Shown: positions 15,298-40,107 of the stretch, piece by piece | Numbering within the stretch: position 1 is the first letter of the stretch | Layout of the letters: every line of letters begins with the position of its first letter | NCBI GenBank assembly: GCA_903845055.1 | Contig: CAIMWF010000146.1 | Location: 1 to 40,107 of the forward strand | From: an uncultured Bacteroidales bacterium | GTDB lineage: Bacteria; Bacteroidota; Bacteroidia; Bacteroidales; FEN-979 | Length of the DNA: 40,107 nt | Direction: 5' to 3' | Translations under genes and position numbers: made by a program | The notes under the pieces: generated by a model | The model's input: the letters and a program-made list of their open reading frames with translations, nothing else | Told to the model about the DNA's origin: nothing | The model's database searches: none

Positions 15298-15597
15298 TCA
15301 TTTTTTTAAGGAATCCTGGCAACATTCGTTGGTACAGGATTGTTTTCTGACGAATTTACCATCCTTGTCAAAGAAAAGCTTTTCATGATTCTTGTCCCTT
15401 GAAACGCAAACATCGTAGGTGATGATTCCTTTGTCATCCACCTTAAAAACCTTGACAATGGTATACCCGGTGAAATTTTTCAGGATATACTCTGAAATCG
15501 GTTTTTGAAGTTCTGAGGATTTTAATTCAGTTTTTGTTTGAGCAAAGATTAAGGTACTCAGCACACAAATAAAAAGTATCAAAAATGCTTTTCTCAT
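15298..15597 (-). CDS. Small PepSY-like periplasmic protein
   Basis: A 99-residue protein with a signal peptide (MRKAFLILFICVLSTLIFAQ). The core LKSSELQKPISEYILKNFTGYTIVKVFKVDDKG plus YDVCVSRDKNHEKLFFDKDGKFVRK fits the same PepSY-like family as the product of 14513-14917; both share an SEL..P...YI.KN pattern. It ends in a Cys-rich tail (QSCTNECCQD) with three cysteines that the paralogue lacks. It begins 84 bases after the stop of the histidine kinase gene, with a near-consensus -7 element (CACCTTTG, minus strand) upstream. Role unknown; possible modulation of the adjacent sensor kinase is inferred from position only. Confidence 0.7.
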   Translation of the reverse strand: MRKAFLILFICVLSTLIFAQTKTELKSSELQKPISEYILKNFTGYTIVKVFKVDDKGIITYDVCVSRDKNHEKLFFDKDGKFVRKQSCTNECCQDSLKK

Positions 15598-17672: not shown

Positions 17673-20600
17673 TCAGTTTCGTACGCATCGCACCGGGAAA
17701 GCATTGGCACGGCTTGAAGAATAAAGTGAGACGCTGAGATTGTAAAAATTAAGCCCGCGGGCCGTTGCATAGGCAGCGAGACCGGCGTCGGCCGTCCAGT
17801 ACATCGACCCGGTGTTGGCACCGGTTCCGAAATTCCAGGTGTCGTTTTCATAAAGAATTCCTTTCAGCAGCCCGTGAAAATCGTTTGACGACAGGGTGTC
17901 CTTCAGCGAACTGCCTGCAATGCCGTTGCCCAGGCGCGATATGATGAGGTTGTCCCATTCGGCGGCGGTTGAAACGTGCCAGCCCGGGGGACAGATGTCC
18001 TGGTATACGGGGGTCTCCTGGTATTGCATCACCTCTCCCCATTGATAGTAACCGCCGAAAATGTCACACTGGGCAGCCAGGTTGTTCCGGCAATATTTTT
18101 CCTGGATGCAGTTGTCGGTCTGCGTCTGGAGCTTTTCGGTGTAGGTGCCGTAGTTCAGGTTGGCAGCGGTCCAGCAACGGGCATTGATCCCGGTACCGGC
18201 AAGAAATGTAGGATAAACCTGGTTGTCGCGGTAATCCTTCAGGTTGCCCGGGCAGGGATCATTGGCGTTGGAGCCAAAGACCGAAACTTTCAAGGTTTTT
18301 TCGTCGAAACAGCTGTAGGTATTGGTATAACGGTAGGTAATGTCATAATCGATGCTGTTCACGGTTCCGCCGCCGGTTACGGCAATATTGCCGGGGTCGA
18401 AGACATAGACCCCCGGGCTGACCTGCGTCACGCCGGTTCCGCTGTAGGTACTCCCGCCGCCTTTCGGCAGTCCCCCCTTCAGGATGATCGGACGGCCGTT
18501 TTTAGTCGTTTTCAGGTCGTTGCACACCTGGTATTCGGCGATCGGTTTTGGGTTCACGGCCACCGGGAACAGGGCCGAACCCGGCCCGGTTCCACAGCTG
18601 TTCTGGCCGGTAACGCTGAGGTTCCCGGAGGTTGCGGTCGCCGAAAAATCAACAAGCAGGTTCGAACCATTGTTGGTGAGGGTCAAGCCGCTGCCGGTGA
18701 AATTCCAGAGATAGCCGGCGGCATTGGCGATGGCGGGAACCGCATAGGGAACGCCGGAGGTTCCCTGGCAAACGATGGCCCCGGTTGCGCTGGTGATGGC
18801 TCCTGCGGCGCCCGGCAGCGGGTTGACGATCACGGGTTTTACAGCGGAAACGCCATAATTGCAGTCGGCGTTAAAACCGCGGACGGTGAAGGTTCCCGAT
18901 GTCGCAGCCGTGGTGAAGACACAGCTTATCTGGCTGGTGCCGCTGCCGCCGGTGATGGTCACCCCGGCCGGGATGCTCCAGTCGTACGAGGTGGTGAAGG
19001 AGAGCGGGGCGATCGAATAGGTCAGTACACTGGCACCCTGGCAAACCGGGCTGGGACCTGTGATCGGTCCTGCCGCCTGGGGTGTGGGATGGATGGTCAG
19101 GATAAGGCTGGAGGAAGCCCCGTTGCCGCAGTTGTTGCTGTGGGGCACTACTGTGACGGGTCCTGAAACGGCAGCCGTGCTGAAGTCGGCGGTAATGGCC
19201 ATTGTTCCGCTACCGCCGGTGATGGTTGTGCCGCCAGGCACGGTCCACACATAGGTATCGGCACCGGTAACAGGGGTGATGGAGTAATTAATACCGGTGA
19301 CCGGTGTGCAAAGGGTGTTTAGCCCGGTTACCGTTCCCGCGGCCTGTGGGGAGAGGTGAATGCTGACCGGAAGGGTTGAGGGCAGGCCCGGGCCGCAACT
19401 GGCACTGATACCCTGCACCGAAATATTACCGGAGACAGCCAGTGTAGGGAAATCAACAGTGATTGAGTTGGTATTCCCGCCCGACGTAATGGTTGCGCCC
19501 GGGGGCAGGGTCCACTGGTAGGTGTTGGCACCGGTAACAGGGGGTATGGAATAGATTATCGCGGTTGCCGGTGTGCAGATGGCGGTAATCCCCGTTACCG
19601 GTCCGGCTGCCTGGGGGCTTGGCGCAACGGTGACCGCCAGGTTCACAGGCGTTCCGGAGCCGCAGATGTTGTTGACTCCCTTGACGCTGATGGTTCCGGA
19701 TACAGCCGCAAGGCCGTAGTCGACCGTAACCGAGTTCGTCGTACCCCCTGACACGATGGTTGCTCCTGCCGGGAAGGTCCACAAGTATGAATCCGCACCG
19801 GTCATGACGGGTATTGAATAGATGATACCGGAGGATGGGGTGCATACCGTGGCCGGACCTGTTACCGGGAAGGCGGAGGAGGGCAGGGTCCCTGCATCCA
19901 CGGAGGTGGGCGCAATGGCTGTCTGGCTGCAGGCATCGGTAACGCTAACCGTATAATTGGTATGTCCCATGACGGGAGGGAAGGTAATGGACTGAGAAGT
20001 AGCAGCAGTGCTCCACACGTACTGGAAGGTGTTGGATGGCAGGATGGGCTGCCCGCCGGTCACTGCCGCGGTGAGGGTTACCGGGGTGCCGTTGCAGACG
20101 GTCACCGGGGCGGCGGTTACGGAAACCGGTGTAATGTCCTTTAACCACAATTCGGTAACCAGGGTGTTGGTTACACTGCAACTGGTGGTGGTGCCGTTGA
20201 TCAGCAGGTTCTCGATGGGCTCCGTAATCCCGTCGGAGATGGCCTGGATGACGATCGGGGGAGCCTGGGTCGATCCGGCGGGAATAACAACCGACGAGGG
20301 GAATGGATTCGGTAAAATGTCGGCCTGTGTGGCCGTTCCTGCAGGATCGATGGCAAGGTCGATGGTGAAATTTGTTGAATGGGGCTCAGGGATTTCGTAT
20401 TGCAGGGTAACGCTGCCGCAACCCTCCACGAGGTACTGCCCGGTCAGGGGATTCGAAAAGGAGGTGGAGCCGATGATGCTGTTGCTCGTAAAGCTGTTCT
20501 GTTCCAGGAAGACCCCTGAATCCCAGGTCCCGTCGCCAGCATCGCCGATGGCAAATTTCATGTGGTAGGTCTGGTTGCAGTTGATCGAATAGCTGGCTGT

Positions 20601-21347
20601 AAAAACGTAGGTAATCCGGTTATAGGATAAATAATCCTTCGCTGCATTCCACCATGAATAGGTTCCATGTCCGGTATTTCCGTTATCGGCGGCGCACACA
20701 TTGTGAATGGTGACATAGCTTGCAGTTTCAGGAAGCAGTGCGATGTTGACGGCATTGTTGGTGAAGCCGGCCCCTCCCGCAATGCCCGGTCCGCTCAGGA
20801 AAAGGCCGAAAGCGTCGTTGTAGCTTGAATTGCAGTATTGGTCGAATTCAATGGAGGAAAAGACATACCGGAAGGTGATCACATCGGTTTGGGGGATAAA
20901 ATCGAATTCCAGAACCGATTTGTCATTGATGGTAGAGTTCGCCAGGATAAAGAGATCGGGATCCGACTCGAAAGGCTGGTTGTTCCCCTCCATGTCATCG
21001 TTGGGATTTGCGGGGGCGATGGCCTTTGCAGTATATCCCGTTGAAAGGAGCACCCCGCCTGCAATCCCGAGTTCGGTCAGCGCTCCGCCGGCCGCCGCGA
21101 AGGAACCAATCTGGTCACGATATTTCAATGGAGTGCGCAGGGTGCTGTTGAGGGGTTCGGGCGACCCGTTGTATAACGCATTTGAAACCGTTACACCGGT
21201 ACCCACCAGGTAGGTCTGTACAAACTGTAAAGGTGTCATGCTGATGGCCGTGCCCGTGTTCACCGTTAACTGGGCGTGTGATTCAAGGGTTAACCCCAGA
21301 ATAGCTGCCAGGATAAGGGTACAAGTCGCGAGGACACGCAGGTTCAT
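17673..21347 (-). CDS. P1: giant surface protein, choice-of-anchor L head, PKD-like stalk, FISUMP C-terminus
   Basis: A 1224-residue protein with a signal peptide (about 1-26). Residues about 27-310 match the choice-of-anchor L domain (TGVTVSNALYNG, FDFIPQTDVITFRYVFSSIEFDQYCNSSYNDAFGLFLSGPG, then IGDAGDGTWDSGVFLE). Residues about 310-487 carry further beta modules. Residues 488-933 are five PKD-like repeats of 89-90 residues. Then comes a module of about 90 residues (pattern YSGTGV...FDP...YTNTYSC), and a FISUMP domain to the end (CWTAANLNYG, YQWGEVMQY, ICPPGWHVSTAAEWD, NAFPVRCVRN). No lipobox, TM anchor or canonical T9SS tail is seen. It is probably an adhesin or matrix protein. It lies 44 bases from P2 and 15 bases from the response regulator gene. 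Confidence 0.85.
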   Translation of the reverse strand: MNLRVLATCTLILAAILGLTLESHAQLTVNTGTAISMTPLQFVQTYLVGTGVTVSNALYNGSPEPLNSTLRTPLKYRDQIGSFAAAGGALTELGIAGGVLLSTGYTAKAIAPANPNDDMEGNNQPFESDPDLFILANSTINDKSVLEFDFIPQTDVITFRYVFSSIEFDQYCNSSYNDAFGLFLSGPGIAGGAGFTNNAVNIALLPETASYVTIHNVCAADNGNTGHGTYSWWNAAKDYLSYNRITYVFTASYSINCNQTYHMKFAIGDAGDGTWDSGVFLEQNSFTSNSIIGSTSFSNPLTGQYLVEGCGSVTLQYEIPEPHSTNFTIDLAIDPAGTATQADILPNPFPSSVVIPAGSTQAPPIVIQAISDGITEPIENLLINGTTTSCSVTNTLVTELWLKDITPVSVTAAPVTVCNGTPVTLTAAVTGGQPILPSNTFQYVWSTAATSQSITFPPVMGHTNYTVSVTDACSQTAIAPTSVDAGTLPSSAFPVTGPATVCTPSSGIIYSIPVMTGADSYLWTFPAGATIVSGGTTNSVTVDYGLAAVSGTISVKGVNNICGSGTPVNLAVTVAPSPQAAGPVTGITAICTPATAIIYSIPPVTGANTYQWTLPPGATITSGGNTNSITVDFPTLAVSGNISVQGISASCGPGLPSTLPVSIHLSPQAAGTVTGLNTLCTPVTGINYSITPVTGADTYVWTVPGGTTITGGSGTMAITADFSTAAVSGPVTVVPHSNNCGNGASSSLILTIHPTPQAAGPITGPSPVCQGASVLTYSIAPLSFTTSYDWSIPAGVTITGGSGTSQISCVFTTAATSGTFTVRGFNADCNYGVSAVKPVIVNPLPGAAGAITSATGAIVCQGTSGVPYAVPAIANAAGYLWNFTGSGLTLTNNGSNLLVDFSATATSGNLSVTGQNSCGTGPGSALFPVAVNPKPIAEYQVCNDLKTTKNGRPIILKGGLPKGGGSTYSGTGVTQVSPGVYVFDPGNIAVTGGGTVNSIDYDITYRYTNTYSCFDEKTLKVSVFGSNANDPCPGNLKDYRDNQVYPTFLAGTGINARCWTAANLNYGTYTEKLQTQTDNCIQEKYCRNNLAAQCDIFGGYYQWGEVMQYQETPVYQDICPPGWHVSTAAEWDNLIISRLGNGIAGSSLKDTLSSNDFHGLLKGILYENDTWNFGTGANTGSMYWTADAGLAAYATARGLNFYNLSVSLYSSSRANAFPVRCVRN
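18549..19886 (-). repeat. P1 stalk: five tandem PKD-like repeats
   Basis: Four units of 267 bp and a last of 270 bp (starts on the minus strand at 19886, 19619, 19352, 19085 and 18818). Each encodes an 89-90 residue PKD-like unit with the pattern P..AG.(V/I)TG....C......Y.I....GA..Y.W..P.G..I..G...N.I.V...(T/A)A.SG...V.G....G. The units are diverged at the DNA level. Confidence 0.85.
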
Positions 21348-21391
21348 CCTAATAAAATTTCAAAATGTCGTGTAAAAATACAACTAAAAAT

Positions 21392-24300
21392 TTAATCCTT
21401 TATACAACGGACTGAAAACGCATTGGCACGGCTGGAAACATACCTGGAAACACTTGGCGTATTGATGTTCAGACCCCGGGCGACGGTCTGGCCGGAGGCA
21501 TTCAGAGAAGAGGACCAGTACATGGTACCCTTGTTTGCTCCCGTATTGAAGGCCCAGGTATTGTCGAGATAATTCATTCCTCCAAGCAAGGCATAGAACC
21601 CATTCGGCAAAAAGGAATCGGTCAGTTCGGGGGCGATCAGGGCGTTGGCGTTTGGTGCGGCGATGCCGGCCACGAGGTTGTCGATCAGTTGCTGCCATTC
21701 GGCATCCGAAGGCAGGTGCCATTCGGGCGGACAGATCCCCTTGGATCCCTGCACAATAGCATAATCCATGATTTCATCCCACTGGTAAAGTCCCCCGTAT
21801 GCCGAACAGGTTGCATCGGTAGGTGCGCAGTATTTTTCAGCGATGCAGTTGTCCGTTTGCGCAGGTACGGGTGAACTGACCAGCGCAGCGCCGTAATCCA
21901 GGTTCTGGGCCATCCAGCAGTGGCCCGCAAGCATAGCGGTTTTGTAGGTTTTGCCGTCGCGCACGTCAGTCAGGGTGCTTCCGCAGAAAAAGGCGATGTT
22001 CTGCACCGAAATGTTCACAGGTCCCGCATTTGCCGGGCAGCCAAAGGTGTTGGTGTAGGTATAGGTCACAGCATAGCTGCCCGCCGTGGCGCCGAGCGGG
22101 TCAAACTGGTAGTACCCGTTAAGGGGGTTGAACGAAACACGGGTTCCCGAATAGATTCCCTGTGCCGGCAGGGAGGGTGCTCCGCCACGCAGGATGATCT
22201 TCTTTGCGCCAGGGGTGGTCACAAGATCGAAGCACGGGGTGAATGCCGGAGCAGGCTTCGGTTTGACATCCGCAACATAGGTTGAGGAAGACAGGCACCC
22301 TGTGGTATTGTTGGTCCCGGTTACTGCAACGGTTGAAGTGCCGGCATTTTGCCAGTCGATGGTGGCAGCATTGGTGCCCTGCCCGCCGGAGATCACCCCA
22401 TTGGTGGAAGGAATGACCGTCCAGGTGAAGGTGCTGGACGGGTCGGCAGGGGTTTGATACAGGTGGGGAACCGACTGGCATACAGGGACAGCGTTTTCAG
22501 TAATGGTGGTAACCGGCAGCGGGTTGACGGTGACATCATATTTTGTAGGGGCAACAGCGGTACAGTTGAATGCATTGATATAATTGGCCGTAACCGATTG
22601 TATGCCGGCAATGTTCCACCTGACGGTGAGTGTGTTGGTAAGGCTGCCCGATAAAACGGTTCCGCCGGGGGTGATCGTCCAGGCATACCCCGACATGCCC
22701 GGCTGTGTCGTATACATTGTGGAGGAGGTGGCGCAGATGGGGTTCAGCGGACTGGTGATCGTGGGGGTGGAAGAGGGATTGACGCTCACATTGTAGGTGG
22801 TTGGGCTTCCTGCTGTACATCCTGTTCCAAGTGTGTAGTTCACGGTTACCGTGTTTGGCCCGGGGGTTGTCCAGTTGACCGTGACGGTTGGATCCGTAAT
22901 GCTTCCACCGCCTGTTTTGGTTCCTCCCGGGGAGACAGACCAGGAATATTGCGACATCCCTGCTTCCGTCGTATAAACCGTCGGAATGCCCGTACAGATG
23001 GAATTAAGGCCCGACAGGGTCGGTACCGGGAGGGTATTGACCAGGACGTTATAACTGCTGGCCACGGGTGCGGTGCACCCGTTGAGGTCGGTGTAATTTA
23101 CGGTGATGGTTTTGGTGCCTGTGGAGCTCCATAAAACGCTGATATTGTTCGTTGTTCCGCCCGAAATCGTCCCGCCCGTTGTAACCGTCCAGGAGTATCC
23201 CGACATGCCCGGGTCGGTCGTGTAGGAGCTGCTTGCGTTCAGGCAGATGGCAGCAGGGCCCGCAAGGGTCGGAACCGGTCGCGGGTTGATGGTGATGACG
23301 GCGCTGCCAGGTTGAAGCTGGCTGCAGGTCGTTGAACCCGCATCCCGCACGCTTACCAGGTTGTATGTGTAGGTGCCTGGAACATTGGTAGGGGCAAAAA
23401 GCGTGATGCTGTTTCCGGCCGCCGTCGTAATGGTTTGTGCCGCTCCCCCGTTGATATTGTAGGTAAAGGTATAGGGAGCGATGGTTGAACCTCCCGTGAA
23501 AGTTACGGGCTGTGAAGGGGCATTCTGGCACACGGTGGTGGTTCCCGAAATGTTGGCGGTCGGGAGCGGGTTGACCGTGACGGTGACATCGCCCGGCTGG
23601 AGCTGGGAGCACAGGGTTGAACTGGCATCCGAAACACTGATGAGGTTACAGGTAAAGGTGCCTGCGACATTGGTCGGCATGGCGATGGTGACACTGTTGC
23701 CCGCGACGGTTGAAACGATCTGGTTGCCGCCCCCGTTGATGCTGTAGGTAAAGGTATAGGGAGGGGTGGCTGATCCGCCGGTAAAGGTGATCAGTTGGGG
23801 CGGTGCGTTCTGGCAGACCGTAACCGTTCCCGTGATGGTGGCGGTAGGCAGTGGGTTGACGACCAGGGTGGCACTGCTGTTTTGCAGTTGCGAACACAGG
23901 GTAGAACTTGCGTCCTGGACGCTTACCAGGTTGTATAAGAAGGTTCCGGCCGTCCCGGTGGGAGCTGTAACGGTCGCGCTGTTCCCGGCGGTGGTGGTGA
24001 CGGTGAGGGCTGACCCCCCGTTGATGTTGTAGGTGAAGGTATAGGGAGGCGTGCCGTTCCCGCCGGTGAAGGTGATGGATTGCGGTGCAGCATTCCTGCA
24101 GACCGTGGTTGTTCCTGAAACAGAGGCGACCGGTAGCGGGTTGACCGTCACGATGGCGCTTCCCGGCTGTAATTGTATACAAGAAGTGGAACTTGCATCC
24201 TGCACACTTTCAAGGGTGTAGGTAAAGGTTCCCGGCAGGGCGGTCGAAACCGTGACCGAAACGCTATTCCCTGCTGCGGTAGTTATGGTTTGCGACGCCC

Positions 24301-26890
24301 CCCCGTTGATGTTGTAGGTAAAGGTATAGGGTGCCGTACCCGATCCGCCGGTAAAGGTAACCGGCAGGTTTGGTGAACCCTGGCAAACAGAGACAGTTCC
24401 TGAAATGGAAGCGGTGGGCAGCGGGTTCACCGTAACCGTGGCGCTCCCGGCCTGGAGCTGGCTGCAGGTTGTTGAACCGGCATCCTGCACGCTTATAAGG
24501 TTGTAGATGAAGGTTCCGGGAATATTGACTGGTGCCTGGAGGACGATGCTGTTCCCGGCAGTGGTGGTTATCGTTTGATTCGCCCCCCAGTTGATATTGT
24601 AGGTGAAGGTATATGGAGGCGTTGACCCCGAACCGGTGAAGGTGACGGGCTGGCTCGCCGGATTCTGGCAGACGGTCGCGTTTCCCGAAATGGTGGCGGA
24701 GGGCAGCGGGTTCACCATAAGGGTTGCCGATCCTGCCTGCAACTGGGTACATCCCGTGGAACTGGCATCCTGCACACTGACCAGGTTGTAGATGTAGGTT
24801 CCCGGAATCGTTGCCGGGGCTGAAAGGATGACGCTGTTTCCAACCGTGGTGGCAATGGTTTGATTTGAGCCGCCGTTGATGTTGTAGGTGAACGTATAGG
24901 GCGGTGTTCCTGTGGTGCCGGTAAAGGTGACCGGTTGGGACGGCGCATCCTGGCAAACTGTGGCGGTCCCCGAAATGGTTGCCGATGGCAGCGGGTTTAC
25001 CACCACCGTGCTGCTGCCCGCCTGGGGTTGTGTGCATGCCGTAGTGCCGCCGTCCTGCACACTGACGAGCTGGTATACAAAGGTGCCGGCAACGCCGGTG
25101 GGCACGGGCAGGGTTACACTATTCCCGGTGACGGTGGAGATGGTTTGGTTCGGGCCACCGTTGACCTTGTAGGTAAAGGTATAGGGAGCAGTGGCACCTG
25201 ATCCTGTAAAGGTGAGGACAGGGGAGGCCGCATTCTGGCAAACCGTTGCAGAGCCGCTGATGGCGGCGGTGGGGAGAGGATTGGCGGTAACAACGGCAGT
25301 ACCCGTGACGATGCCGGTGGGACAACCCATGTTCGCGGTGGTTACCGATGCAAGGGTGTAAGTCCCCGGCGTCGAAGTAGTGATCACATAGGGCACGGTA
25401 TTGTTATAGACCACGGGGGGCTGGTTCACCCCGTTGATGGCGTATATGAAGGTAAACGGGGGTATCCCTGAAGGAAAGGAGACCGTAACGGTCGAATGTT
25501 GTGCTCCGTCGTTGCAGAAAGCGCCTCCTCCGCTGATCTGGGCCTGCGGGCACGGAGCCGAAGGCGCTGTAAACTGTTGCGTAAGGTTGCAGTTGAGGCT
25601 GTCGCTGAAAACGGCCGAAAGCATGTGGGAGGCACCGTCGCATGGGAGACCGGCAAGATTGAAGGGCACCGGGCTGACGAACGGAGGGTTGAATGTTTGC
25701 GATACGGGCGGTATTGCCGTAATGTCGGTAACGGTAAGCGTGCCGGTGGGCGAGGGATTGCTGAACTCGACGTTACCCGATACCGAGAAGGTGTTGGTCG
25801 CATTATCACATGGCGTAGGAATCGCGGAGATGTCGATGACCGTGCAATGAAGAATAATGTTGCAGTTGGTGATACCCGTTCCCCCGGTCTGTGAAAAGGT
25901 GATTGTCCCCGCCGCCTGGCTGAAGTTTGTCATCAGCAGGATGTAGATTTCGCCTACCTGTGCATTGTAGATGTGGCAGGTTTCGGTTGCGTTCCCCGAA
26001 TAGCTGCAGTCGGTCATGTTGCCTTTCGGATAGGTGCACCCTGGATTTACATTGGTACAACAGGGGTCGGTTGGTTTGGGACAGGTGCCGGTCAGGCCGG
26101 TGGCGCATCCGTCGGTTACGTTTGAAAAGGGGCCCCAGCATATAAAATCGACATCCCTCGGCGTGCCGCCCAGGTCGACCTGGGAAATGGAGATGATGAT
26201 GTCGCCGGGAGTTCCCACCTGCATGTAGTACCATGCGGGGCAAGGGGTGGAACCGAGACATCCGTAATTCGGGTAACCGGCCACGGCGGGAGGTGCCGTA
26301 CCTGAAGTGCCCGAGGGGAAGGAGTAGGTGTTGGCCGAACAGGAAACCTGCGCGCTGGAACAGTCATTGGTGCCTTCAAGCGGTGTGATGCGCGGTTCAG
26401 GTTCAATCCCGGTGACCGCCGGATAAAAGGGCGATGACTTTGCTATAGCCTGCTGGTCCTCAACTGCAGTGGATGCCGATGCCGCTTTCACATCAAGAAA
26501 CAACTGGCCGAAGGCAGGCCGGGCATCCTCCCTGTAAAGCCTGGTCATGAAAAGGGCGGAGTCATTCTTCACCTCATTCTTGTCGGCTATGTATATTTTC
26601 TGGTCGCCCGCCTGGGTCAGGAATTCTATCCGTTCAAAAGCAGAATTCAGGAAGGAAAACCTGACATAGTAAAAATCATACCCGTTTTCGGAGAAACTGA
26701 ATCTTGCAAAATTCCGGAGGGTATCGAACCGGAGATTATTAAAACCGGATGAATCGTTTGCCGAAGAATAGCATTTAAAAGCATCGGCCGTGTGATGGCT
26801 TGTGATGCTGATGGATGAGGAGGGAGCCAGTGCGAAAATCCCGGGATGGAAAAAGAAAAGGAAAAGGAAGAAAAGATAGATTTTATTCAT
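21392..26890 (-). CDS. P2: giant surface protein, seven 95-residue repeats, FISUMP C-terminus
   Basis: A 1832-residue protein. A signal peptide (about 1-20) is followed by a distinctive head (about 25-370). The head has an ordered N-terminal section (RFDTLRNFARFSFSENGYDF) and then a Cys-rich section (AWYYMQVGTPGDIIISISQV, DVDFICWGPFSNVTDGC, CHIYNAQVGEIYILLMTNFS) of a kind seen in other secreted Bacteroidota proteins. Linker modules lead to seven 95-residue repeats (537-1201), then four Ig/PKD-like modules (about 1202-1540). The shared penultimate module (IYSGTRVSFNPLNGYYQFDP) and the FISUMP domain (about 1635-1832) follow. No T9SS tail is visible. It is preceded by a promoter-like element and leader similar to those of P3. 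Adhesin-like; ligand unknown. Confidence 0.85.
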   Translation of the reverse strand: MNKIYLFFLFLFFFHPGIFALAPSSSISITSHHTADAFKCYSSANDSSGFNNLRFDTLRNFARFSFSENGYDFYYVRFSFLNSAFERIEFLTQAGDQKIYIADKNEVKNDSALFMTRLYREDARPAFGQLFLDVKAASASTAVEDQQAIAKSSPFYPAVTGIEPEPRITPLEGTNDCSSAQVSCSANTYSFPSGTSGTAPPAVAGYPNYGCLGSTPCPAWYYMQVGTPGDIIISISQVDLGGTPRDVDFICWGPFSNVTDGCATGLTGTCPKPTDPCCTNVNPGCTYPKGNMTDCSYSGNATETCHIYNAQVGEIYILLMTNFSQAAGTITFSQTGGTGITNCNIILHCTVIDISAIPTPCDNATNTFSVSGNVEFSNPSPTGTLTVTDITAIPPVSQTFNPPFVSPVPFNLAGLPCDGASHMLSAVFSDSLNCNLTQQFTAPSAPCPQAQISGGGAFCNDGAQHSTVTVSFPSGIPPFTFIYAINGVNQPPVVYNNTVPYVITTSTPGTYTLASVTTANMGCPTGIVTGTAVVTANPLPTAAISGSATVCQNAASPVLTFTGSGATAPYTFTYKVNGGPNQTISTVTGNSVTLPVPTGVAGTFVYQLVSVQDGGTTACTQPQAGSSTVVVNPLPSATISGTATVCQDAPSQPVTFTGTTGTPPYTFTYNINGGSNQTIATTVGNSVILSAPATIPGTYIYNLVSVQDASSTGCTQLQAGSATLMVNPLPSATISGNATVCQNPASQPVTFTGSGSTPPYTFTYNINWGANQTITTTAGNSIVLQAPVNIPGTFIYNLISVQDAGSTTCSQLQAGSATVTVNPLPTASISGTVSVCQGSPNLPVTFTGGSGTAPYTFTYNINGGASQTITTAAGNSVSVTVSTALPGTFTYTLESVQDASSTSCIQLQPGSAIVTVNPLPVASVSGTTTVCRNAAPQSITFTGGNGTPPYTFTYNINGGSALTVTTTAGNSATVTAPTGTAGTFLYNLVSVQDASSTLCSQLQNSSATLVVNPLPTATITGTVTVCQNAPPQLITFTGGSATPPYTFTYSINGGGNQIVSTVAGNSVTIAMPTNVAGTFTCNLISVSDASSTLCSQLQPGDVTVTVNPLPTANISGTTTVCQNAPSQPVTFTGGSTIAPYTFTYNINGGAAQTITTAAGNSITLFAPTNVPGTYTYNLVSVRDAGSTTCSQLQPGSAVITINPRPVPTLAGPAAICLNASSSYTTDPGMSGYSWTVTTGGTISGGTTNNISVLWSSTGTKTITVNYTDLNGCTAPVASSYNVLVNTLPVPTLSGLNSICTGIPTVYTTEAGMSQYSWSVSPGGTKTGGGSITDPTVTVNWTTPGPNTVTVNYTLGTGCTAGSPTTYNVSVNPSSTPTITSPLNPICATSSTMYTTQPGMSGYAWTITPGGTVLSGSLTNTLTVRWNIAGIQSVTANYINAFNCTAVAPTKYDVTVNPLPVTTITENAVPVCQSVPHLYQTPADPSSTFTWTVIPSTNGVISGGQGTNAATIDWQNAGTSTVAVTGTNNTTGCLSSSTYVADVKPKPAPAFTPCFDLVTTPGAKKIILRGGAPSLPAQGIYSGTRVSFNPLNGYYQFDPLGATAGSYAVTYTYTNTFGCPANAGPVNISVQNIAFFCGSTLTDVRDGKTYKTAMLAGHCWMAQNLDYGAALVSSPVPAQTDNCIAEKYCAPTDATCSAYGGLYQWDEIMDYAIVQGSKGICPPEWHLPSDAEWQQLIDNLVAGIAAPNANALIAPELTDSFLPNGFYALLGGMNYLDNTWAFNTGANKGTMYWSSSLNASGQTVARGLNINTPSVSRYVSSRANAFSVRCIKD
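23288..25282 (-). repeat. P2 stalk: seven tandem 285-bp repeats
   Basis: Seven units of exactly 285 bp (95 residues) fill 1995 bp without gaps. Each begins NPLP and contains (S/T)G..(T/S)VC(Q/R), TFTG, PYTFTY(N/K)(I/V)NGG, QT(I/V)(S/A/T)T, GNS and LVSVQDASST. The family differs from the P3/P4 repeats. Confidence 0.92.
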
Positions 26891-26971
26891 GAATCAGAAA
26901 AAAGTTACCCGACCTTGCTTAAAGGACGAGGTGAACCCTGAAAGGTTGCTTCAAAAAATGGATTTAGGCTG

Positions 26972-27002
26972 TAAAGTTACACTTATTTATCAAACGGGCA
27001 AA
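26972..27002 (-). promoter_or_regulatory. Putative P2 promoter (-33 TTTG, N19, -7 TAACTTTA)
   Basis: On the minus strand, TTTG (27002-26999), then 19 bases, then TAACTTTA (26979-26972). This matches the Bacteroidota consensus TTTG-N19-TAnnTTTG with one mismatch. The -7 box begins 82 bases before the P2 start, exactly as the similar box does for P3. P2 and P3 share TAnCTTTACAGC at this position. Confidence 0.55.
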
Positions 27003-27044
27003 GCCTGATTAGGGTGTTACCCATACAAGTGTAACATTGGGAGG

Positions 27045-30000
27045 TCAATTTTTGACGCACCGCACGGAAAATGCATTCCCCCGGCTGCAGCTGTACAGGG
27101 AGATGCTGGGATTGAAGATGTTCAGGCCGCGGGCCACGGAGCGGGTTGTCCCGCTGACGTTGGAGGTCCAGTACATGGTGCCGGTTACGCTGCCGCCGGT
27201 GAAGGACCAGGTATTGTCTTCATAATTCAATCCCCCAAGCAGGGCATGAAAGCCGCCGGGCAGCAAAACATCCCTCAGGGTCGAGCCTGAAATTGCGTTG
27301 GCGTCGGGTGACCCCACCCCTGCCACCAGGTTGTCGATGAGCGATTGCCATTCAACCATCGTGGGCACATGCCATTCGGGGGGACAGATTCCCTTGGCTG
27401 CGGGTGCTGCGGTGTAATCCATCAGTTCATCCCACTGGTACATCCCGCCATAGGCCGAACAGGTCGCATCGGATGGCGCGCAGTATCTTTCGGGAACGCA
27501 GTTGTCGGTTTGGGGCAACCCCGGCGACACCAGCGATGTTCCATAGGCAAGGTTTTCGGTCATCCAGCATTGCCCCGAAAGCCATGCGGTTTTATAGGTT
27601 TTCCCGTCGCGCACGTCGGTGAGGGTTCCGCCGCAGCTGAAGGAGTTGTTCTGTACGTTAATGGTCACAGCCGGGGCGGAGGCCATGCATCCATAGGTGT
27701 TGGTGTAGGCATAACTGATGGCATAGTTGCCTGCAGGGTCTCCCAGCGGGTCAAACTCGTACAGGCCGGTCAATGCATTCAGGCTCACCCTCGCCCCTGA
27801 AAAGACACCCTGGCCTGCAAGCCACGGCGTTGCGCCCCGGAGTACGATCTTTTTCGCCCCGGAGGTGGTGACGACATCGAAACAGGGGGTGAAGGATACC
27901 TCCGGCAGGTTGTGCACGGCAATATTGAGGATCTTTGAAACCGTCCCGCTACCGCAGTTGTTTACCCCTTTCACCGTCAGCGAGCCGCTGGTGGCGGAAG
28001 CGGTAAAGGTAATGGTAATGGCAGCAGAACCGTTGTTGGTAAGGGTCACCCCCGACCCGGAGTAACTCCAGAGGTAGGAGGTGGCATTGGTGATGACCGG
28101 GATGGTATAAGGATAGGTGGAGGTCCGGCAAACCGATTTCTGGCCGGTAATGGTGTCGGCCGCCGCGGGCCATGGTTCGAGAACCACGGGGAGGGTTGTA
28201 GCGGGGGCTGAGCAAGATACCCCCGGGTAGCCGATGGTCTCCGTCAGGTCGAGCGATCCGCCGGCGGTATTTCCCCACCACACCTGGACCGTGCTGCCGT
28301 TCTGCCCGGCCATGATGGTCCCCCCGGCAACGGTCCAGCTGTATAGGTGACCGCCGATCACCGGGGTGAGCGTGTAATTCTGGGTCGACAGCGCGCATAC
28401 GGGAGAAGGACCTGTGATTTGCGGGGAAGGCAAGGCATTTACCGTGACTCCGTAATTCGTTGGAACAGCAGCCGTACAGCCGGTGCCGACCACGTAGTTC
28501 ACGCTGATGGTATAACTGCCCGCCACCGTCCATTTGATCGTAACAAAGTCGTCAAGGGATCCGCCGCCGGCTACCGGGACAAAACCCGAAGGAGGAAGCC
28601 CCCAGGCATAAGAGGTGGCACCGGTTTGGGTCTGGTAAGTTTTGGTATCGCCCGCGCACACGGTGGTGGCGCCGGTGATGGTCGGGTTGGGCAGTGAATT
28701 GACCACGATCTGCCGGGAGACGGGTGCCTGGGCCGTGCAGCCGTTGGCATCGGTCCAGTTCACGGTGATGCTGTGCGTGCCGAGGGCTGTCCAGTTTACC
28801 ACCGCCTGTTTCGTGCTTTGGCCTGAGATAATGTTTCCTCCGGCCACAACATTCCAGAAATAGCCTGACTGGAAATCCTCGGTGGTATAGGTCGCCGGCA
28901 CGTTCAGACATACGGCTGCGGGTCCCGTGATGGTCGGCACGGGTAAGGGGTTGACCGTGATGGTGAAGGTTGACGGGTTCCCGGTGCATGTCAGCCCGGC
29001 ATTGGTGAACGAAGGTGTGACCGTGATGGTTGCAGTAAGAGGGGCCGCTGTTGTATTGGTTGCGGTGAACGGGGTGATGTTCCCGGTTCCGGTGGCACCC
29101 AGCCCGATGGAGGGGTTGGAATTGGTCCAGCTGTAAATGGTACCGGGCACGCTCCCGGTGTAAGTTACAGGGGCGGTGGTAAACTGGTGGCACAGCACCT
29201 GGTTTGCACTGGTGTTGACCATGGGGACCGGGTTCACGGTAATGGTAAAGGATGTTGAAATCCCGGTGCATGTTACCCCCGCATTGGTGAAGGAGGGGCT
29301 GATGGTGATCGTGGCTGTGGCAGGTACTATCCCGGTATTGACGACCGCGAATGAGCCGATGTCGCCGGCACCGGCGGCTGCCAGCCCGATGGATGGGTTG
29401 GTGTTGGTCCAGCTGTAAACGGTTCCCGGAACAAACCCGGTGAAGAGGGCCGGCGCGGTCGATGCATTATGGCAAAGCACCTGGTTCGGCAGCCCGTTGA
29501 CAGTCGGGATCGGGTTTACGGTAAAGGTAAACAGTAAGGGGGTCCCGGTGCAGGTAACGCCTGCATTGGTAAACAAAGGGGTGACGGTCACGGCGGAGGT
29601 CTGCGGCACGGCCGTGGTGTTGAGGGCCGTAAAGGCGGATATGTTGCCGGTTCCCGCAGCGGCAAGCCCGGTCGATGCATTGGTATTGGTCCAGGTGTAG
29701 ATCGTTCCGGGTACATTTCCTGTAAAGTTGACCGGGAGGGTGGCCGACTGGTGGCACACGACCTGGCTGGAAATGGTGTTGACCGTTGGAACGGGGTTCA
29801 CGGTGATGCTGAAGGATGCGGGGGTACCGGTACAGGTTAGACCCGCATTGGTATAGGAGGGTGTTACCGTGATGGTGGCGGTGACCGGTGCCGGTGTGGC
29901 ATTGATCGCCGTAAAGGCGGGAATATCTCCCGTGCCTGCGGCAGCCAGACCGATGGCGGGGTTGGTGTTGGTCCAGTTGTAAACAGTTCCCGGAACGTAC

Positions 30001-33000
30001 CCGGTGTAATTGATGGCATTCGTCATAACATTGTGGCACAGCACCTGCCCCGCAATGGCATTGACCGTGGGGGTGGGGTTCACGGTCATGGTGAACACGG
30101 AGGGTGTGCCCGTGCAGGTCACCGCCGTGTAGGTGAACAGGGGAGTCACCGTGATGGTTGACGTTACCGGGGCGTTGGTGGTGTTGACGGCGGTAAAGGT
30201 TACGATGTTCCCCGTTCCTGCCGCTGCAAGCCCGATCGAAGGGGTGGTGTTAAACCAGCTGTAAACGGTGCCCGGCACATTCCCGGAATAATTCACTGCT
30301 GTGGTGGGCGACTGGTTGCACAATACCTGGTTTGCCAATGCATTCACCGTTGGCACCGGGTTGACGGTGATGCTGAAGGATGCGGGGGTTCCCATGCAGG
30401 TCACACCGGTATTGGTGAAGGATGGCGTGACGGTAATGGTGGCGGTAACCGGCCCCGGGTTGTTATTGATGGCCGTAAAGGGTGGGATATCCCCCGTGCC
30501 GGCGGCAGCCAGCCCGATGGAGGGGTTGGTGTTGCTCCAGCTGTAAACAGTTCCCGGAACGAACCCGGTGTAATTGACGGCATTGGTCAGCACATTGTGG
30601 CACAGCACCTGTCCCGCGATGGCATTGACCGTGGGGATGGGGTTGACGGTGATGGTGAAGGAAACCGGGTTTCCGGTACAGGGGACCCCGGTATTGTTAA
30701 AGGTCGGGGTTGCCGTAATGGTGGCGGTGACCGGTGCCGATGTCGTGTTGGTGACGGAAAATGGCGCGATATCACCCGTTCCGGCAGCGGCAAGACCGAT
30801 GGAGGCATTGCTGTTGGTCCATGAATAGACGGTTCCGGGTACAAATCCTGTAAAAGTGACCACGGTAGTCGAAGCGCCATGGCATAGCACCTGGCCGGGC
30901 AACGGGTCGACCGTAGGAATGGGGTTGACCGTGATCTGGAACTGGTGCGGCGTCCCGCTGCAGGTGGCTCCCGAATTGGTAAAGGAGGGGTGGATGTCTA
31001 TGGTGGCAACCTGGGGGATGCTGGTGACGTTGTTCACCGTGAAGGAGGCGATATCCCCGGTGCCGGTTGCTGCAAGCCCGATGGAGGGATTGGTGTTGGT
31101 CCAGGCAAAAACGGTGGACGGAACATCGCCGGTAAAGAATACCTGGTTGGTTGCCATATTATGACAGAGTACCTGCGGATCCACCACGTTGACATTCGGC
31201 TGGGGGTTCACGGTGATGGTGAAGGAGAGGGGCAGCCCGGTGCAGGTGTGCCCGGCGTTGGTGAACGAAGGGGTTACCGTAATGGTTGCGGTAACCGGGA
31301 GATTCGTAGCGTTGGTCGCTGCGAATGAGGAGATGTTTCCCGATCCGGCCGGGGGCAGCCCGATGGTGGGGGTGTCGTTCGTCCAGCCGTAGATGGTTCC
31401 CGGCACGTTGCCTGTGAATGAGATCGCCGTGACCATGGCCGACGGACAAAGCACCTGGCTTGCCACCGGGTTGATCGCCGGGAGCGGGTTTACCGTAATT
31501 GTAAAGGAAACAGGCGTCCCGGTGCAGGTGGCGCCCGCATTGGTGAAGGCGGGGGTGACGGTGATGGTTGCGGTGATGGGCGCAGAAGTCGTGTTGACGA
31601 CGGTAAAAGGGGCAATGTCGCCGGTGCCGGCGGCTGCAAGCCCGATGGAAGGGGTATCGTTCGTCCAGGTGAAAACGGTGCCGGCAGCATTGCCTGCCAG
31701 CGGAACCGCGGCCGTTTGTTCGTTATGGCACAAAACCTGGTTCACAACGGCATTCACCGTGGGAATGGGGTTGACGGTAACGGCGAAATCCTGCGGGTTG
31801 CCCACACAGCCGTTCAGTTTGGGAGCGATGTGGTAGGTAACCAGTCCCGGGTTGGGGTCGGTAACGGCCAGCACGTCGGCGATCGAGGTGCCGGAGGAGA
31901 GCCCGGCCGGGCATGACAGGATGTTGGCCGAACAGGTGGGGGGCGGGAGGTTCCAGGCGAAGTCGGACCCGGGCGGGGTGGAAGACAGGGCGATGGAGGT
32001 GTTGCTCCCCGAGCAGATGGTCCTGGCCAGCGGCCCGTTCACCGAGGGGATCGGCTTGATGGTGACCTGTTTGGGGGTGGGAGGGTCGCCCGTGCACCCC
32101 GCATCGGTATAGTTCACCGTGACGGTTTTGACCCCCGGGGCTGCCCACGACACCACAAGGGTGTTGTCGGCAGGGCTGCCCCCGGAGATCCACGTGGCTC
32201 CCGAGGTGAGGTAATCCCACACGTAATTTGTCTTTCCCGGCTGTGTCGTAAAGGTAACAGGCACGCCGGCGCAATATTCGCTGGCGGGGGTGGTGAGAAC
32301 CGGCACCTCGAAAGGGTTGACCGTCAAATTCAGGGTGGTGGCGCCCATCGCCTGGCACCCAGAGGCATTTGAATAATTGATCGAGACGAAGTTGGGACCG
32401 GTGGTGCTCCATTTGAGGGTGACCGTGTTGTCGGAGGTTCCTCCGCCGGCGATCCAGGTTCCCGAATAGGTCCAGGTGTAGTTGCTGCCGCCGGTATCGG
32501 TGGTATAGGTCTTTACGTCATTCTGGCATGAGGTCGAAAGCCCCCCGGTGAGCATGGGTGATGGCCTTGGGTTTACCGTGACGGTAACCGAACTGGAGGC
32601 GTTGGTGCCGTCGCAGTTGCCCACCACGGCATAATAGGTGGTGGTGGCCGTTGGTGAAACGGTGAGCGTTGTGCCGTACCCTACCTGGGTGCCGCCGGGG
32701 TAGGCGTCCTTGTACCAGGTGATGCCGCTTGGGGTGAACCGGGTTCCTTCGTTGGCGGCCGTCCACACCTGGTAGTTCCTGCCTGTGGCGGTATAAGCCT
32801 GGTCGCCGACCAGGTTGATGACCCCCTGGGTGGCGCCCTCACTTGAACCACTTCCCGAACATTCAGGCTTGAGCTGGATGAAATTTTCAATGATGCTGGT
32901 CGATTCATTCAAAACGATCATGAAGGTTCCCCGGTTGGCAGTCTGGGTCTGGCAATCAAAAAGCGGGCAATGGTTCCAGTAAACGACCAGTTTACGGTCG

Positions 33001-33524: not shown

Positions 33525-33605
33525 GTATCAGGAAAAACGACCTATTTGAATAAACGGACAATCTTAACGCCCGGAGGTTGCCTGCCGGATTAAATATTAG
33601 TGCTG

Positions 33606-33613
33606 TAAAGGTA
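33606..33613 (-). promoter_or_regulatory. Putative -7 element for P3
   Basis: The minus strand reads TACCTTTA followed by CAGC, one mismatch from TAnnTTTG. It begins 82 bases before the P3 start, the same distance as for P2, and the following leader shares short blocks with P2. No TTTG lies at the usual -33 distance. P4 has a related TATCTTTACCAG at 39365-39376. Confidence 0.4.
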
Positions 33614-33683
33614 TAAATTTTTTTGCAAATGAAAAGCATCTCATTAGGGTTCTGACCTTACAAAAACCAGGTACCGTCAATGA

Positions 33684-33732
33684 ATTTCGGATTTCGGATT
33701 TCAGATTTCAGATTTCAGATTTTATATTTCAT
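33684..33732. repeat. Intergenic heptanucleotide repeat (ATTTCRG type)
   Basis: Seven consecutive seven-base units: ATTTCGG twice, ATTTCAG three times, then ATTTTAT and ATTTCAT. A reverse-complement copy (TGAAATC twice) lies at 33788-33801 and can pair with 33697-33710 or 33704-33717 over 14 bases. It lies in the 284-base gap between P4 (its 3' end) and P3 (its 5' side). The stem could form a 3' end structure for P4 mRNA, but no classical U-run follows. Confidence 0.8.
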
Positions 33733-33808
33733 ATATTACATTTTTTGCCCTCAATTTTGTTCTGATACGTGGTTTGAATGTGAGATGTGAAATCTGAAAT
33801 CTGTGAAA

Positions 33809-36800
33809 TCAGTTTTTAATGCACCGTACGGAAAATGCGTTTCCGCGGCTGCTGCTGTAAAGGGAGATGCTGGGGGTGAAGATGTTCAGCCCGCGCGAAA
33901 TGGATTGGGTCATGCTGCTGGTGGTGGAGGTCCAGTACTGGGTACCGGTATTGGTGCCGTTGGTGAAGGCCCAGTAATTGTCCTCGTAATTCAGCCCTCC
34001 AAGCAGCCCGTGAAAGCCGCCGAAAATCAGCACATCCTTCAGGGTCGACCCGACCAGCGCGTTGGCATCTGGCGAGACGATCCCTGCGAGCAGGTTGTCG
34101 ATGAGCGACTGCCACTCGACCTGCGTGGGTACATGCCATTCGGGGGGGCAGATCCCTTTGACGGCCGGGGTGATGGCGTAATCCATCATCTCGTCCCACT
34201 GGTACATGCCGCCGAAGGTGGTGCAGGTTGCATCGGCCGGGGAGCAGTATTTTTCGGGGACGCAATTGTCGGTCTGGGGAAGCCCGGGCGACACCAGCGT
34301 GGTGCCATAGGCAAGGTTCTCGGTCATCCAGCAGCGGCCCGCCAGCCAGGCGGTCTTGTAGGTCTTCCCGTCGCGCACGTCCGTCAGGGTGCCGCCGCAG
34401 GCAAATGCACTGTTCTGCACGCTGATGGTCACCGCGGGGGCCGATGCCATGCACCCGAAGGTATTGGTATAGCCATAGGTGATGGAATAGTTGCCCGACG
34501 GGGCCCCGAAGGGATCGAATTCATAAAACCCGGTGAGTGCATTCAGCGCTACCCTTGCGCCGGTATAGACCCCCTGTCCGGTGAGCCATGGCGTTCCGCC
34601 ACGCAGCACGATCTTCTTTGCCCCGGAGGTGGTGACCAGGTCGAAACAGGCGTTGAAGGCTACCTCCGGGAGGTTGTGCACGGCGATATTGAGCAACGGC
34701 GAATCGGGCCCGTTCCCGCAAAGGTTGACCCCTTTAACGGTGAGGGCGCCGCTGGTGGCGGCGGCTGAAAAGGTGATCGTAATGGTCGCATTCCCGTTGT
34801 TGGTGATGGTTACCCCCGCGCCGCTATAGATCCAGTTGTAGGATGTGGCGTTTGCAATGACGGGAACTGAATAGGTGTAGGTGGATGTTTTGCACACCGA
34901 GTTCTGCCCGGTAATGAGCCCTGCGGCCACGGGCCATGGATTCAGAACCACCGGGAAGGTGTTGGCAGGCGCCGAACAGGAGATGCCCGGGTAGCCGATC
35001 GTTTCGGTCAGGTCGAGCGAACCGCTGGCGGCGGTGCTCCACAGCACCTGGACGGTGCTGCCGTTTTGCCCGGCAAGGATGGTCCCCCCGGTAACGCTCC
35101 AGTTGTAGAGATGGCCGCCGATCACCGGCGTGAGGGTGTAATTCTGGGTCGACAGCGCGCACACGGGCGACGATCCCGTGATCTGGGGCGCAGGCAGGGG
35201 GTTGACCGTAACGCCGTAATTCGTCGGAACCGCGGCCGTGCAGCCGGTACCGACCATATAGTTGACGCTGACGGTATAGCTGCCCGCAACGGTCCATTTG
35301 ATGGTTACAAAGTCATCCAGCGATCCGCCGCCGGCAACAGGTATGAATCCCGACGGGGGAAGGCCCCACGTGTAGGAGGTGGCCCCGGCCTGGGTCTGGT
35401 AGGTCTTGGTATCGCCGGCACACACGGTGGTGGCGCCGCTGATGGTGGGGCTGGGCAGTGAATTCACCACGATCTGCCTGGAGGTGGCCGCCTGGGCGGT
35501 ACAGCCGTTGGCGTCGACATAATTCACGGTGAGGGAGTGGGTCCCGATGACGGTCCAGTTCACCACCACCTGTTTCGAGCCCTGGCCCGAGACGAGGTTC
35601 CCGCCGGCCACCACATTCCAGAAATAACCCGACTGGAAATCTTCGGTATTATAGGTGGCAGGCACATTCAGGCAAACCATGGCTGGTCCTGTGATGGTGG
35701 GCACGGGCAACGGGTTGACGGTGATGGTAAAGGAGCCGGGCAGCCCGGTGCAGGTGACGCCCGCACTGGTATAAAACGGTGTAATGGTGATGGTAGCCGT
35801 TACGGGTGAACCCGTTGTATTGGTCGCGGTAAAGCCGGCGATGTTCCCGGTTCCCGCAGCGGCAAGGCCGATGGTGGTGTTGGAGTTTGTCCAGGCATAG
35901 ACGGTTCCGGGCACATACCCTGAAAAACTGACCGCCGAGGTCAGGAACTGGTGGCACAGCACCTGGTTGGCGACGGCACTGACGGTTGGCGTGGGGTTGA
36001 CGGTGATGTTAAAGGAACTGCCGGCCCCGGTGCAGGTTACCGCGCCATTGGTAAAGGATGGGGTTACCGTTACGGTGGTGGTAACAGGAGCATTGGTGGT
36101 ATTAGTGGCGGTAAACGCGCTGATATCGCCGGTTCCGGCTGTTGCCAGCCCGATGGAGCCGTTGCTGCTGGTCCACGAGTAGACTGTTCCGGGAACAGAC
36201 CCGGTAAAGGGTACCTGCGAGGAAGTCATGTTGTTGCAGATCACCTGGTTTGCCGTTGCGTTAACCGTGGGAATGGGGTTAACGGTGAAGGTGAAGGGGG
36301 TGGGCAACCCGGTGCAGGAAGGTCCCGCGTTGGTATAGAAAGGTGTTGCCGAGATCGTAGCAGTAACCGGGGCGTTTGTGACATTGAACGCAGTAAAGGA
36401 TGAGATGTCGCCGGTCCCGGCGGCTCCCAGTCCGACCGTTGTATTGGTGTTGGTCCATGTATAGGTGGTTCCTGCAACATCCGCGGTAAAATGCACCGGG
36501 GCGGTGGCCGTATTGTGACATAAAACCTGGCTTGTCACCGGGGTGATCACCGGGATGGGGTTCACGGTGATGATGAACTGGTGCGGCGTGCCGTTGCAGG
36601 TGGCTCCTGAATTGGTGAACGAGGGATGGATGTCGATGGTGGCGGTTTGAGGAACAATGGTGATGTTGGTGGCCGTAAAAGAGGCGATATCCCCGGTGCC
36701 GCTTGCCGCAAGGCCGATGGATGGGTTTGTGTTGGTCCAACTGTAAATAGTTGACGGCACATCGCCTGTGAACAATACCTGGGTGGATGTCGTGTTGTGA

Positions 36801-39313: not shown

Positions 39314-39368
39314 CCAGGATCAGTTTGGCGGCATAAAACAATGCCTGTACAACAATAACTTAAACTGG

Positions 39369-39376
39369 TAAAGATA
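39369..39376 (-). promoter_or_regulatory. Putative -7 element for P4
   Basis: The minus strand reads TATCTTTA followed by CCAG, similar to the TAnCTTTACAGC boxes before P2 and P3, but 56 bases from the start codon instead of 82. No -33 TTTG is seen at the usual spacing. Confidence 0.3.
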
Positions 39377-39408
39377 CAAATAAAATATAACGACCTTACA
39401 TCGTGGTT

Positions 39409-40107
39409 TTAGGGCGTATCCTTAACACAGCGAACCGAAAAAGCATTCATCCTGCTGCCATCGTAGCGCGACATGCTCGGGTTGAAAATATTCAGCCCCC
39501 TCGCCAGGGCACGTTCAGTGCCATTGACGGTCGACGACCAGTACATGGTGGCGGTAAGCGACCCGGTGGTAAAACTCCAGGTGTTGTTGATATAGTAGAG
39601 TCCTTTCAGCAGGGCAAAAAATCCCGGGTTCAACAGCGGATCCTTCATGAAACTGCCAGCAAGGGCATCCGCAGGGGAGATCACCGCAACCGAGATGTTG
39701 TTGACCAGCAGCTGCAGTTCTGCCTCGGTCGGCACATGCCATTCGGGCGGACAAACGCCCTGGTTTCCCGTAGTGGAGGCGTAACGCATCAGTTCATCCC
39801 ACTGGTAAAGCCCGCCGTACTGCGAACAGGTCGCGTCTGCAGGCAGGCAGTACTTTTCATTGATACAGTTGTCCGTCTGCGGGGTGGTTTGCCCGTCGAT
39901 GATGGTACCGTATGCCAGGTTCTGCGCCATCCAGCATTTGCCGCCTACCAGGGAGGTTTTGTAGGTTTTGCCGTCACGGACATCGGTAAGGAGTCCGCCG
40001 CAGCTGAAACTGCTGTTTACAATGCTGATGGCAACCGGCCCGGCGCTGTTGACGCATCCGTAATTGTTGGTGAAGGTGTAGGTGATCGGGTAACTGCCGA
40101 TCCCGGC
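39409..40107 (-). CDS. P5: C-terminus of a fifth FISUMP surface protein (5' end beyond window)
   Basis: The open frame runs from the stop at 39409 to the window edge without interruption, about 230 residues. It reads through the end of the shared penultimate module (a YPITYTFTNNYGCVNSAGPV stretch at the window edge), then FISUMP: DVRDGKTYKTSLVGGKCWMA, NLAYGT, LYQWDELMRY, VCPPEWHVPTEAELQLLVNN, MYWSSTVNG, MNAFSVRCVKD. It ends with three extra residues (DTP) instead of the terminal N or D of P1-P4. Head and stalk lie outside the window. It is most likely the fifth member of the array; the array may extend further. Confidence 0.85.
   Translation of the reverse strand, partial: AGIGSYPITYTFTNNYGCVNSAGPVAISIVNSSFSCGGLLTDVRDGKTYKTSLVGGKCWMAQNLAYGTIIDGQTTPQTDNCINEKYCLPADATCSQYGGLYQWDELMRYASTTGNQGVCPPEWHVPTEAELQLLVNNISVAVISPADALAGSFMKDPLLNPGFFALLKGLYYINNTWSFTTGSLTATMYWSSTVNGTERALARGLNIFNPSMSRYDGSRMNAFSVRCVKDTP

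Follow-up and report, generated by a model that had tools for sequence, protein, structure and literature searches.

The window analysed here, the complete 40107-bp contig C146 of an uncultured Bacteroidales genome (3.95 Mb, 175 contigs, 95% complete), carries most members of a conserved and recombining array, a real one, of giant proteins that are probably surface-exposed. We argue that the best joint explanation is a tandem array, conserved across the genus, whose giant stalked surface proteins resemble adhesins and recombine with one another, and in which the shared C-terminal pair, an Ig-like module followed by FISUMP, serves as a sorting or anchoring end. We give this combined reading a probability of about one half. 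Each protein would have a signal-peptide-like start, an N-terminal head, a long PKD/Ig stalk and the shared C-terminal pair.

The array and its address

Five co-oriented open reading frames of 1224, 1832, 2159 and 1834 aa, plus one partial, lie on the (-) strand of the window (P1 to P5, Table 1). An earlier note on this DNA had claimed exactly these lengths. It had also described a common C-terminal pair and a PKD stalk, and the profiles bear this out. The tail of P1-P5 is FISUMP (PF09603 E 3e-17 to 7e-22; TIGR02145 E 5e-22 to 3e-30), PKD-like domains are found in P1-P4 and the Ig-like module before FISUMP aligns among the paralogues. In the Pfam/NCBIfam search that the note had proposed, all five score above the curated cut-offs of both FISUMP models, as does P6, introduced below. 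The stalks contain tandem DNA repeats, with 282-nt units in P3 and P4 and 285-nt units in P2.

Table 1. Features of the array, its borders and the second group of giants (positions are those of the window unless a contig is named)
Feature	Position	Strand	Remarks
Small PepSY_2-like protein	15298..15597	-	Kept beside the kinase; E 0.0017, below the Pfam cut-off
Histidine kinase	15682..16944	-	Adjoins the regulator
OmpR-type response regulator	16974..17657	-	Starts 15 nt after P1; downstream array border in relatives
P1, 1224 aa	17673..21347	-	Choice-of-anchor-L head ~20490-21221; PKD_6 stalk; C-terminal pair ~17676-18581
TANNTTTRC promoter-like motif before P1	21372..21380	-	
P2, 1832 aa	21392..26890	-	Head H2, without Pfam match; type-B stalk; C-terminal pair ~21395-22297
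P2 stalk, 285-nt repeat units	23208-25193		Tandem-repeat analysis
TANNTTTRC promoter-like motif before P2	26971..26979	-	
P3, 2159 aa	27045..33524	-	Head H3; ten type-A stalk repeats; C-terminal pair ~27048-27950
P3 stalk, 282-nt units	28981-31818		Tandem-repeat analysis
TANNTTTRC promoter-like motif before P3	33605..33613	-	
P4, 1834 aa	33809..39313	-	Head H5, same as P5; six type-A stalk repeats; C-terminal pair ~33812-34714
TANNTTTRC promoter-like motif before P4	39368..39376	-	
P5, C-terminal end	39409..40107	-	Remainder on C40; 3368 aa in total; head H5
141-bp exact overlap with end of C40	39967..40107	.	C40 carries the remainder of P5 and P6
Second group, L057	C103:78490-83741		
Second group, L059	C88		
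Second group, L058	C100		

The array does not stop at the end of the window. The right end of C146 and an end of contig C40 share an exact 141-bp overlap, and a 161-nt probe over it has 5 matches in the genome, at 100% only at these two ends. Across the join P5 is an unbroken frame. Upstream of it lies a sixth FISUMP-ended gene, P6 (1664 aa, C40:103755-108749), which adjoins a divergent gene that reads as lyase-like. The home array is bordered by the lyase-like gene on one side and the response-regulator/kinase pair on the other. The note had suggested looking past position 40107. Its array of five genes stands for the window, but there are six genes in total once C40 is joined. It had also raised the possibility of an assembly artefact. 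This was rejected because the overlap is unique and three relatives hold five-gene arrays inside single contigs. The start of C146 overlaps the start of C50 by 141 bp too, and C50 ends in another FISUMP giant.

The head of P1 matches NF038133 (choice-of-anchor L) above cut-off with E 7.7e-54, and G021, G018 and G023 have orthologues of P1 that are 1223-1224 aa long and 59-69% identical to it. The Pfam scan leaves the heads of P2 and P5 unnamed and gives no match above cut-off for those of P3, P4 and P6. The P2 stalk repeats match Pfam nucleoporin Pom152 Ig-like models above cut-off, which is probably general Ig similarity. Elsewhere in the window are a FeoA-FeoB fusion cut at the contig start (1-2160), a C10 peptidase with an inhibitor prodomain, CUB domains and a type IX A tail (4442-6604), and a small lipoprotein-like protein with a CxxCH motif (CNACH; 13853-14317). 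The last has weak cytochrome and NifU matches below cut-off and is kept downstream of the kinase in G021 and G023.

Across the genus the array keeps the same address, and the loci vary in how many members they have, in the order of these and in their head types and stalks. The regulator has a match (E up to 1e-60) at 75-89% identity in 13 of the 18 other genus genomes, with a second match in G015 at 52%; 5 of all 19 show no such match. Of the 14 genus genomes with the regulator, the home genome included, 13 have a FISUMP-ended gene directly upstream of it; in G022, G017 and G015 this gene runs into a contig end, and in G012 it is split. The split one is a P1-type gene in two ORFs of 793 and 193 aa before the regulator (L211 4960-7936). 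G010 is an empty site, with the lyase-like gene and the regulator as neighbours and no array between them (L212, G010:C222 1-8875). The earlier note had named scattered loci in related genomes as evidence against itself; the comparison finds the genes together at one address. From lyase to regulator there are 6 genes in the home genome, 5 each in G021, G025 and G016, and 0 in G010, where the home array is read over two contigs and the G016 lyase appears as two overlapping shorter ORFs. The heads run H6-H5-H5-H3-H2-H1 in the home genome, H7-H6-H5-H2-H1 in G021, H6-H6-H5-H2-H1 in G016 and H6-H6-H1-H5-H3 in G025.

It must be noted that the FISUMP giants of the home genome are not all in this array. 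The genome has 26 FISUMP matches, 25 of them above cut-off, and beyond the array these include giants that stand alone and, on C103, C88 and C100, a second group whose members closely resemble one another. In DNA the members of this group are mostly 84-89% identical towards the tail and 75-79% farther upstream, while C88a and C88b share a longer stretch, including part of the tail, at 79%. A DUF5723 protein lies near the second group and may be a shuttle-like partner.

Many array genes would have their own promoter. The motif TANNTTTRC, which we take to resemble the Bacteroidota -7 promoter element, was first noticed in the home genome and counted afterwards. Of 31 array genes, 17 have it in the 200 nt upstream and 14 do not; 500 order-1 resamplings give 1.3 such genes on average and never more than 5. 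By locus the counts are 5/6 in the home genome, 5/5 in G021, 1/5 in G025 and 2/5 in G016. The whole window has 19 matches where 6.5 are expected, at least eight of them inside array genes. A generic promoter/terminator scan was at chance (10 against 9.2 and 20 against 18.9). The linked two-component system may adjust expression of the array; control by the regulator/kinase pair is inferred from linkage.

Exchange of heads, stalks and tails

The note had called this a diversifying surface-protein locus. We find support for that, with surface location as the predicted part. Number, order, head and stalk all differ between loci, and head and tail trees conflict. The mosaic set consists of 31 array proteins, sorted by hand into six head groups from an all-against-all BLAST. 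Genes start-cut by contig ends, the split G012 genes, ORFs of up to 700 aa and a 3944-aa G018 protein outside the locus were dropped. Six head types are combined with at least two stalk-repeat types in varying numbers and with one tail. One head type is choice-of-anchor L, and another, present only in G021 and G023, is IgGFc_binding (from a scan of the G021 member). On the sequences compared, FISUMP is the more constant part of these proteins and not the diversifying part. P6 makes the point, with a head conserved at 31-54% and a stalk and tail mostly at 71-83%. P1 is an exception. Its residues 1-300 are conserved at 63-78% against 47-67% for the stalk, so there the head is the better conserved part.

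Stalks vary under the same head. With H2 heads the stalk is BBBBBBBB in the home P2 but BBAAAAAAA in a 1913-aa protein of G021, and with H3 heads there are ten type-A repeats in the home P3 against two type-B repeats in G025. The type-A profile was built from 18 stalk pieces that partly overlap one another, and several proteins fit neither profile. The G021 1913-aa protein was considered as a P2 head on a P3/P4 tail. That idea is weakened since its tail groups with the P2-type tails (support 85/81); the protein departs from P2 in the stalk.

Tails also part from heads. P3 (H3) and P4 (H5) have different heads, yet their tails are sisters in the tail tree with support 100/98. Within H6 the heads of G016_1473, G023a_1675 and G020_1190 group together, and the tail of G016_1473 groups with that of G016_1897. 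AU tests reject the head clade on the tail data (p 2e-31) and the tail clade on the head data (p 6e-55). These p-values are optimistic because the clades were picked after the BLAST results and the 31-row tail tree had been seen, and G020_1190 has a long tail branch. Over the whole tail tree there are 11 head-label changes, where the minimum possible is 5 and shuffled labels give a mean of 19.3. Head and tail are therefore linked, but not fully. For 22 of 31 proteins the closest tail belongs to a protein with a head of the same type, and for 9 of 31 it comes from the same genome.

One can imagine a scenario of ordinary tandem duplication, divergence and gain and loss in which modules are never exchanged. 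The tails that match their head type fit such a history, as do P1 and P6 with their clear full-length orthologues. It must then account for AU tests that reject in both directions, for the BBAAAAAAA stalk chimera and for sister tails under the different heads of P3 and P4, and we consider it improbable. Since head and tail conflict and a relative holds a stalk chimera, recombination between paralogues is the best-supported diversifying process. We argue that exchange of head, stalk and tail is real but episodic, the latter because most tails still track head type. The array would diversify through recombination among neighbouring paralogues.

The C-terminal pair

The pair is about 290 aa long, with nine cysteine columns held in more than 60% of rows in an alignment of 122 sequences. 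Over 14 giants of the home genome (two partial) it has 42 invariant columns. Of the 122, 110 have the Ig-like module, and the 12 without it are the truncated P5 plus 11 small FISUMP proteins. A model of the P3 pair from the 122 sequences has a pLDDT of 95.7 and a pTM of 0.90 with both domains confidently placed, where an earlier model from 14 rows had reached a pLDDT of 44. In this model the FISUMP domain is packed with the Ig-like module. Of the 157 complete ORFs at the loci examined, 155 have the end of FISUMP no more than 10 aa from the stop. The other two have partial profile alignments, and their last residues are also the end of FISUMP. The last six residues have a column entropy of 0.65 bits, second-lowest of 30 blocks; the lowest is the 10-residue block 181-190 at 0.61 bits.

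By sequence search the genomes sampled show the pair as a family-level feature. With a threshold of E 1e-60 it turns up in 39 of the 43 genomes of the family (up to the best 56 candidates scored); the four without such a match are G010, G011, G019 and G026. Among 198 genomes sampled from the order it is found in 2, both of this family, and among 296 sampled from the phylum only in the home genome itself, with the best 8 or 12 candidates per genome scored in these two samples.

The proteins would be exported to the cell surface, probably via the type IX translocon. SprA_N is present in 43 of 43 family genomes, so the hosts have this translocon component. The home genome has at least 150 PF18962 matches (150 of 179 candidates scored), at least 140 of them over cut-off, and 13 PF13585 matches. 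PKD stalks resembling that of P4 occur in ORFs with type IX tails, for example on C46, C79, C101 and C120. The FISUMP giants do not carry these tails. P1-P5 have no match to the type A and B models (TIGR04183/PF18962 and TIGR04131/PF13585) at E up to 0.01, and neither PF18962 nor PF13585 matches P6 or the 8 other giants. In all, the direct scan of these 14 home-genome giants, 7 of which (ORFs or pieces) are cut by contig ends at the N-terminal side, gives 0 matches to either Pfam model. A lipobox-like pattern is found in 0 of the 31 array proteins.

The best hint comes from the choice-of-anchor-L heads. The family name implies a head used with alternative anchors. Among 29 genus matches, 12 end in the FISUMP pair (one split), 8 in type IX A, 4 in type IX B and 2 in IPTL-CTERM, and 3 are cut by a contig end; the end of G015:C107 was assigned by a PF13585 match in the same 762-aa frame. 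The FISUMP pair thus fills the place of type IX A, type IX B or IPTL-CTERM ends, which hints at a sorting slot. From this we infer that the Ig-like and FISUMP pair may act as a surface-sorting or anchoring module, and as such an end it would leave the variable heads outermost. The two IPTL-CTERM cases are short proteins (L213 1443-2363, L214 2170-3072). Two papers describe C-terminal domains (CTDs) as holding both secretion and targeting information, and a type C besides A and B (PMC12618676, PMC10202324). A fuller version of the claim has the pair as a further outer-membrane sorting and anchoring signal, used by this Bacteroidales family instead of known type IX tails or IPTL-CTERM, borne by recombining arrays of interchangeable giant adhesins under a dedicated two-component system. 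We put that version forward tentatively, and would bet against all of its parts holding at once.

FISUMP could instead form the tip of an adhesin, a lectin-like domain at the C-terminus that binds a ligand, with export and anchoring achieved by other means. Domains related to FISUMP have a C-type-lectin-like fold, and the FISUMP giants have sub-threshold Lcl_C matches. The pair model resembles predicted phage proteins (best E 8e-8), with phage FISUMP and DUF1566 proteins among the best matches. In the PDB no fold match is found at E up to 0.001, which does not help a lectin-like tip; the best is 4eps (E 2.7e-3, TM 0.25), and a PDB sequence search gives 7b5h at E 6e-6 over the Ig-like part and three others above 0.1. 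Several small FISUMP proteins of the home genome carry lipoprotein-like signals by eye, and a simple lipobox pattern is found in 6 of 12 distinct ones, one at an unlikely lipobox site. FISUMP can therefore occur without being an anchor. Published work on Fibrobacteres lists FISUMP as a putative domain for attachment and perhaps a cohesin analogue, and FISUMP and DUF1566 are reported as targets of diversity-generating retroelements (PMC4159848). The small lipoprotein-like proteins, the retroelement targets and the phage resemblance make the binding tip a serious rival, and we rate it at somewhat less than an even chance. A tip sits badly with a pair that is kept while most heads diverge (P1 excepted), with the low entropy of the last six residues and with the anchor slot that the pair occupies in the choice-of-anchor family. 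The published retroelement targets also raise the scenario that the tails here are varied by such an element. We reject this as highly improbable: the home genome, at 95% completeness, has 0 PF00078 reverse transcriptase matches, the C-terminal residues are among the most conserved rather than hypervariable, and variation is mainly in heads and stalks. A sorting or anchoring end is the reading of the pair that we prefer.

FISUMP in known systems

FISUMP domains have been tallied in great number, with no agreed function. In published counts, Fibrobacteres genomes have 17-119 copies, C. alkaliphilus excepted (PMC4704652), and Ornithobacterium hominis has up to 17 FISUMP genes, a quarter of them with a predicted Ig-like fold, in gene sets that vary between samples (PMC6421346). 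The domain here is the same by curated cut-off and also has many paralogues. It differs in ending stalked proteins of 931-3368 aa, in standing behind an Ig-like module and in belonging to a syntenic array with module exchange. Like type IX cargo such as the giant adhesin SprB, these proteins combine a signal-peptide-like start, head, stalk and C-terminal module, but their tail is of a length, cysteine content and profile unlike the type A and B tails. As in choice-of-anchor L proteins, the P1 head passes the NF038133 cut-off and related heads in the genus bear differing C-terminal signals, but the FISUMP pair as one of these ends has no published description that we found. Retroelement variable proteins share the C-terminal FISUMP, but here the home genome has no reverse transcriptase match and no hypervariable tail is seen. 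The earlier note knew of no described array of this kind. Our literature search, with subscription papers outside its scope, likewise turned up no account of an array like this one or of FISUMP in a sorting role.

A tail that acts as a sorting module would be new. The role of FISUMP becomes testable because, in one head family, the pair stands where other members have known sorting signals. At the very least, uncultured lake bacteria here provide a clear example of recombination at a locus for giant adhesin-like proteins, with an address that is conserved, a genome in which the site is empty and a regulator attached to the array. If our reading of the tail is true, the pair lets one lineage display, from recombining arrays, many giant adhesins that are interchangeable.
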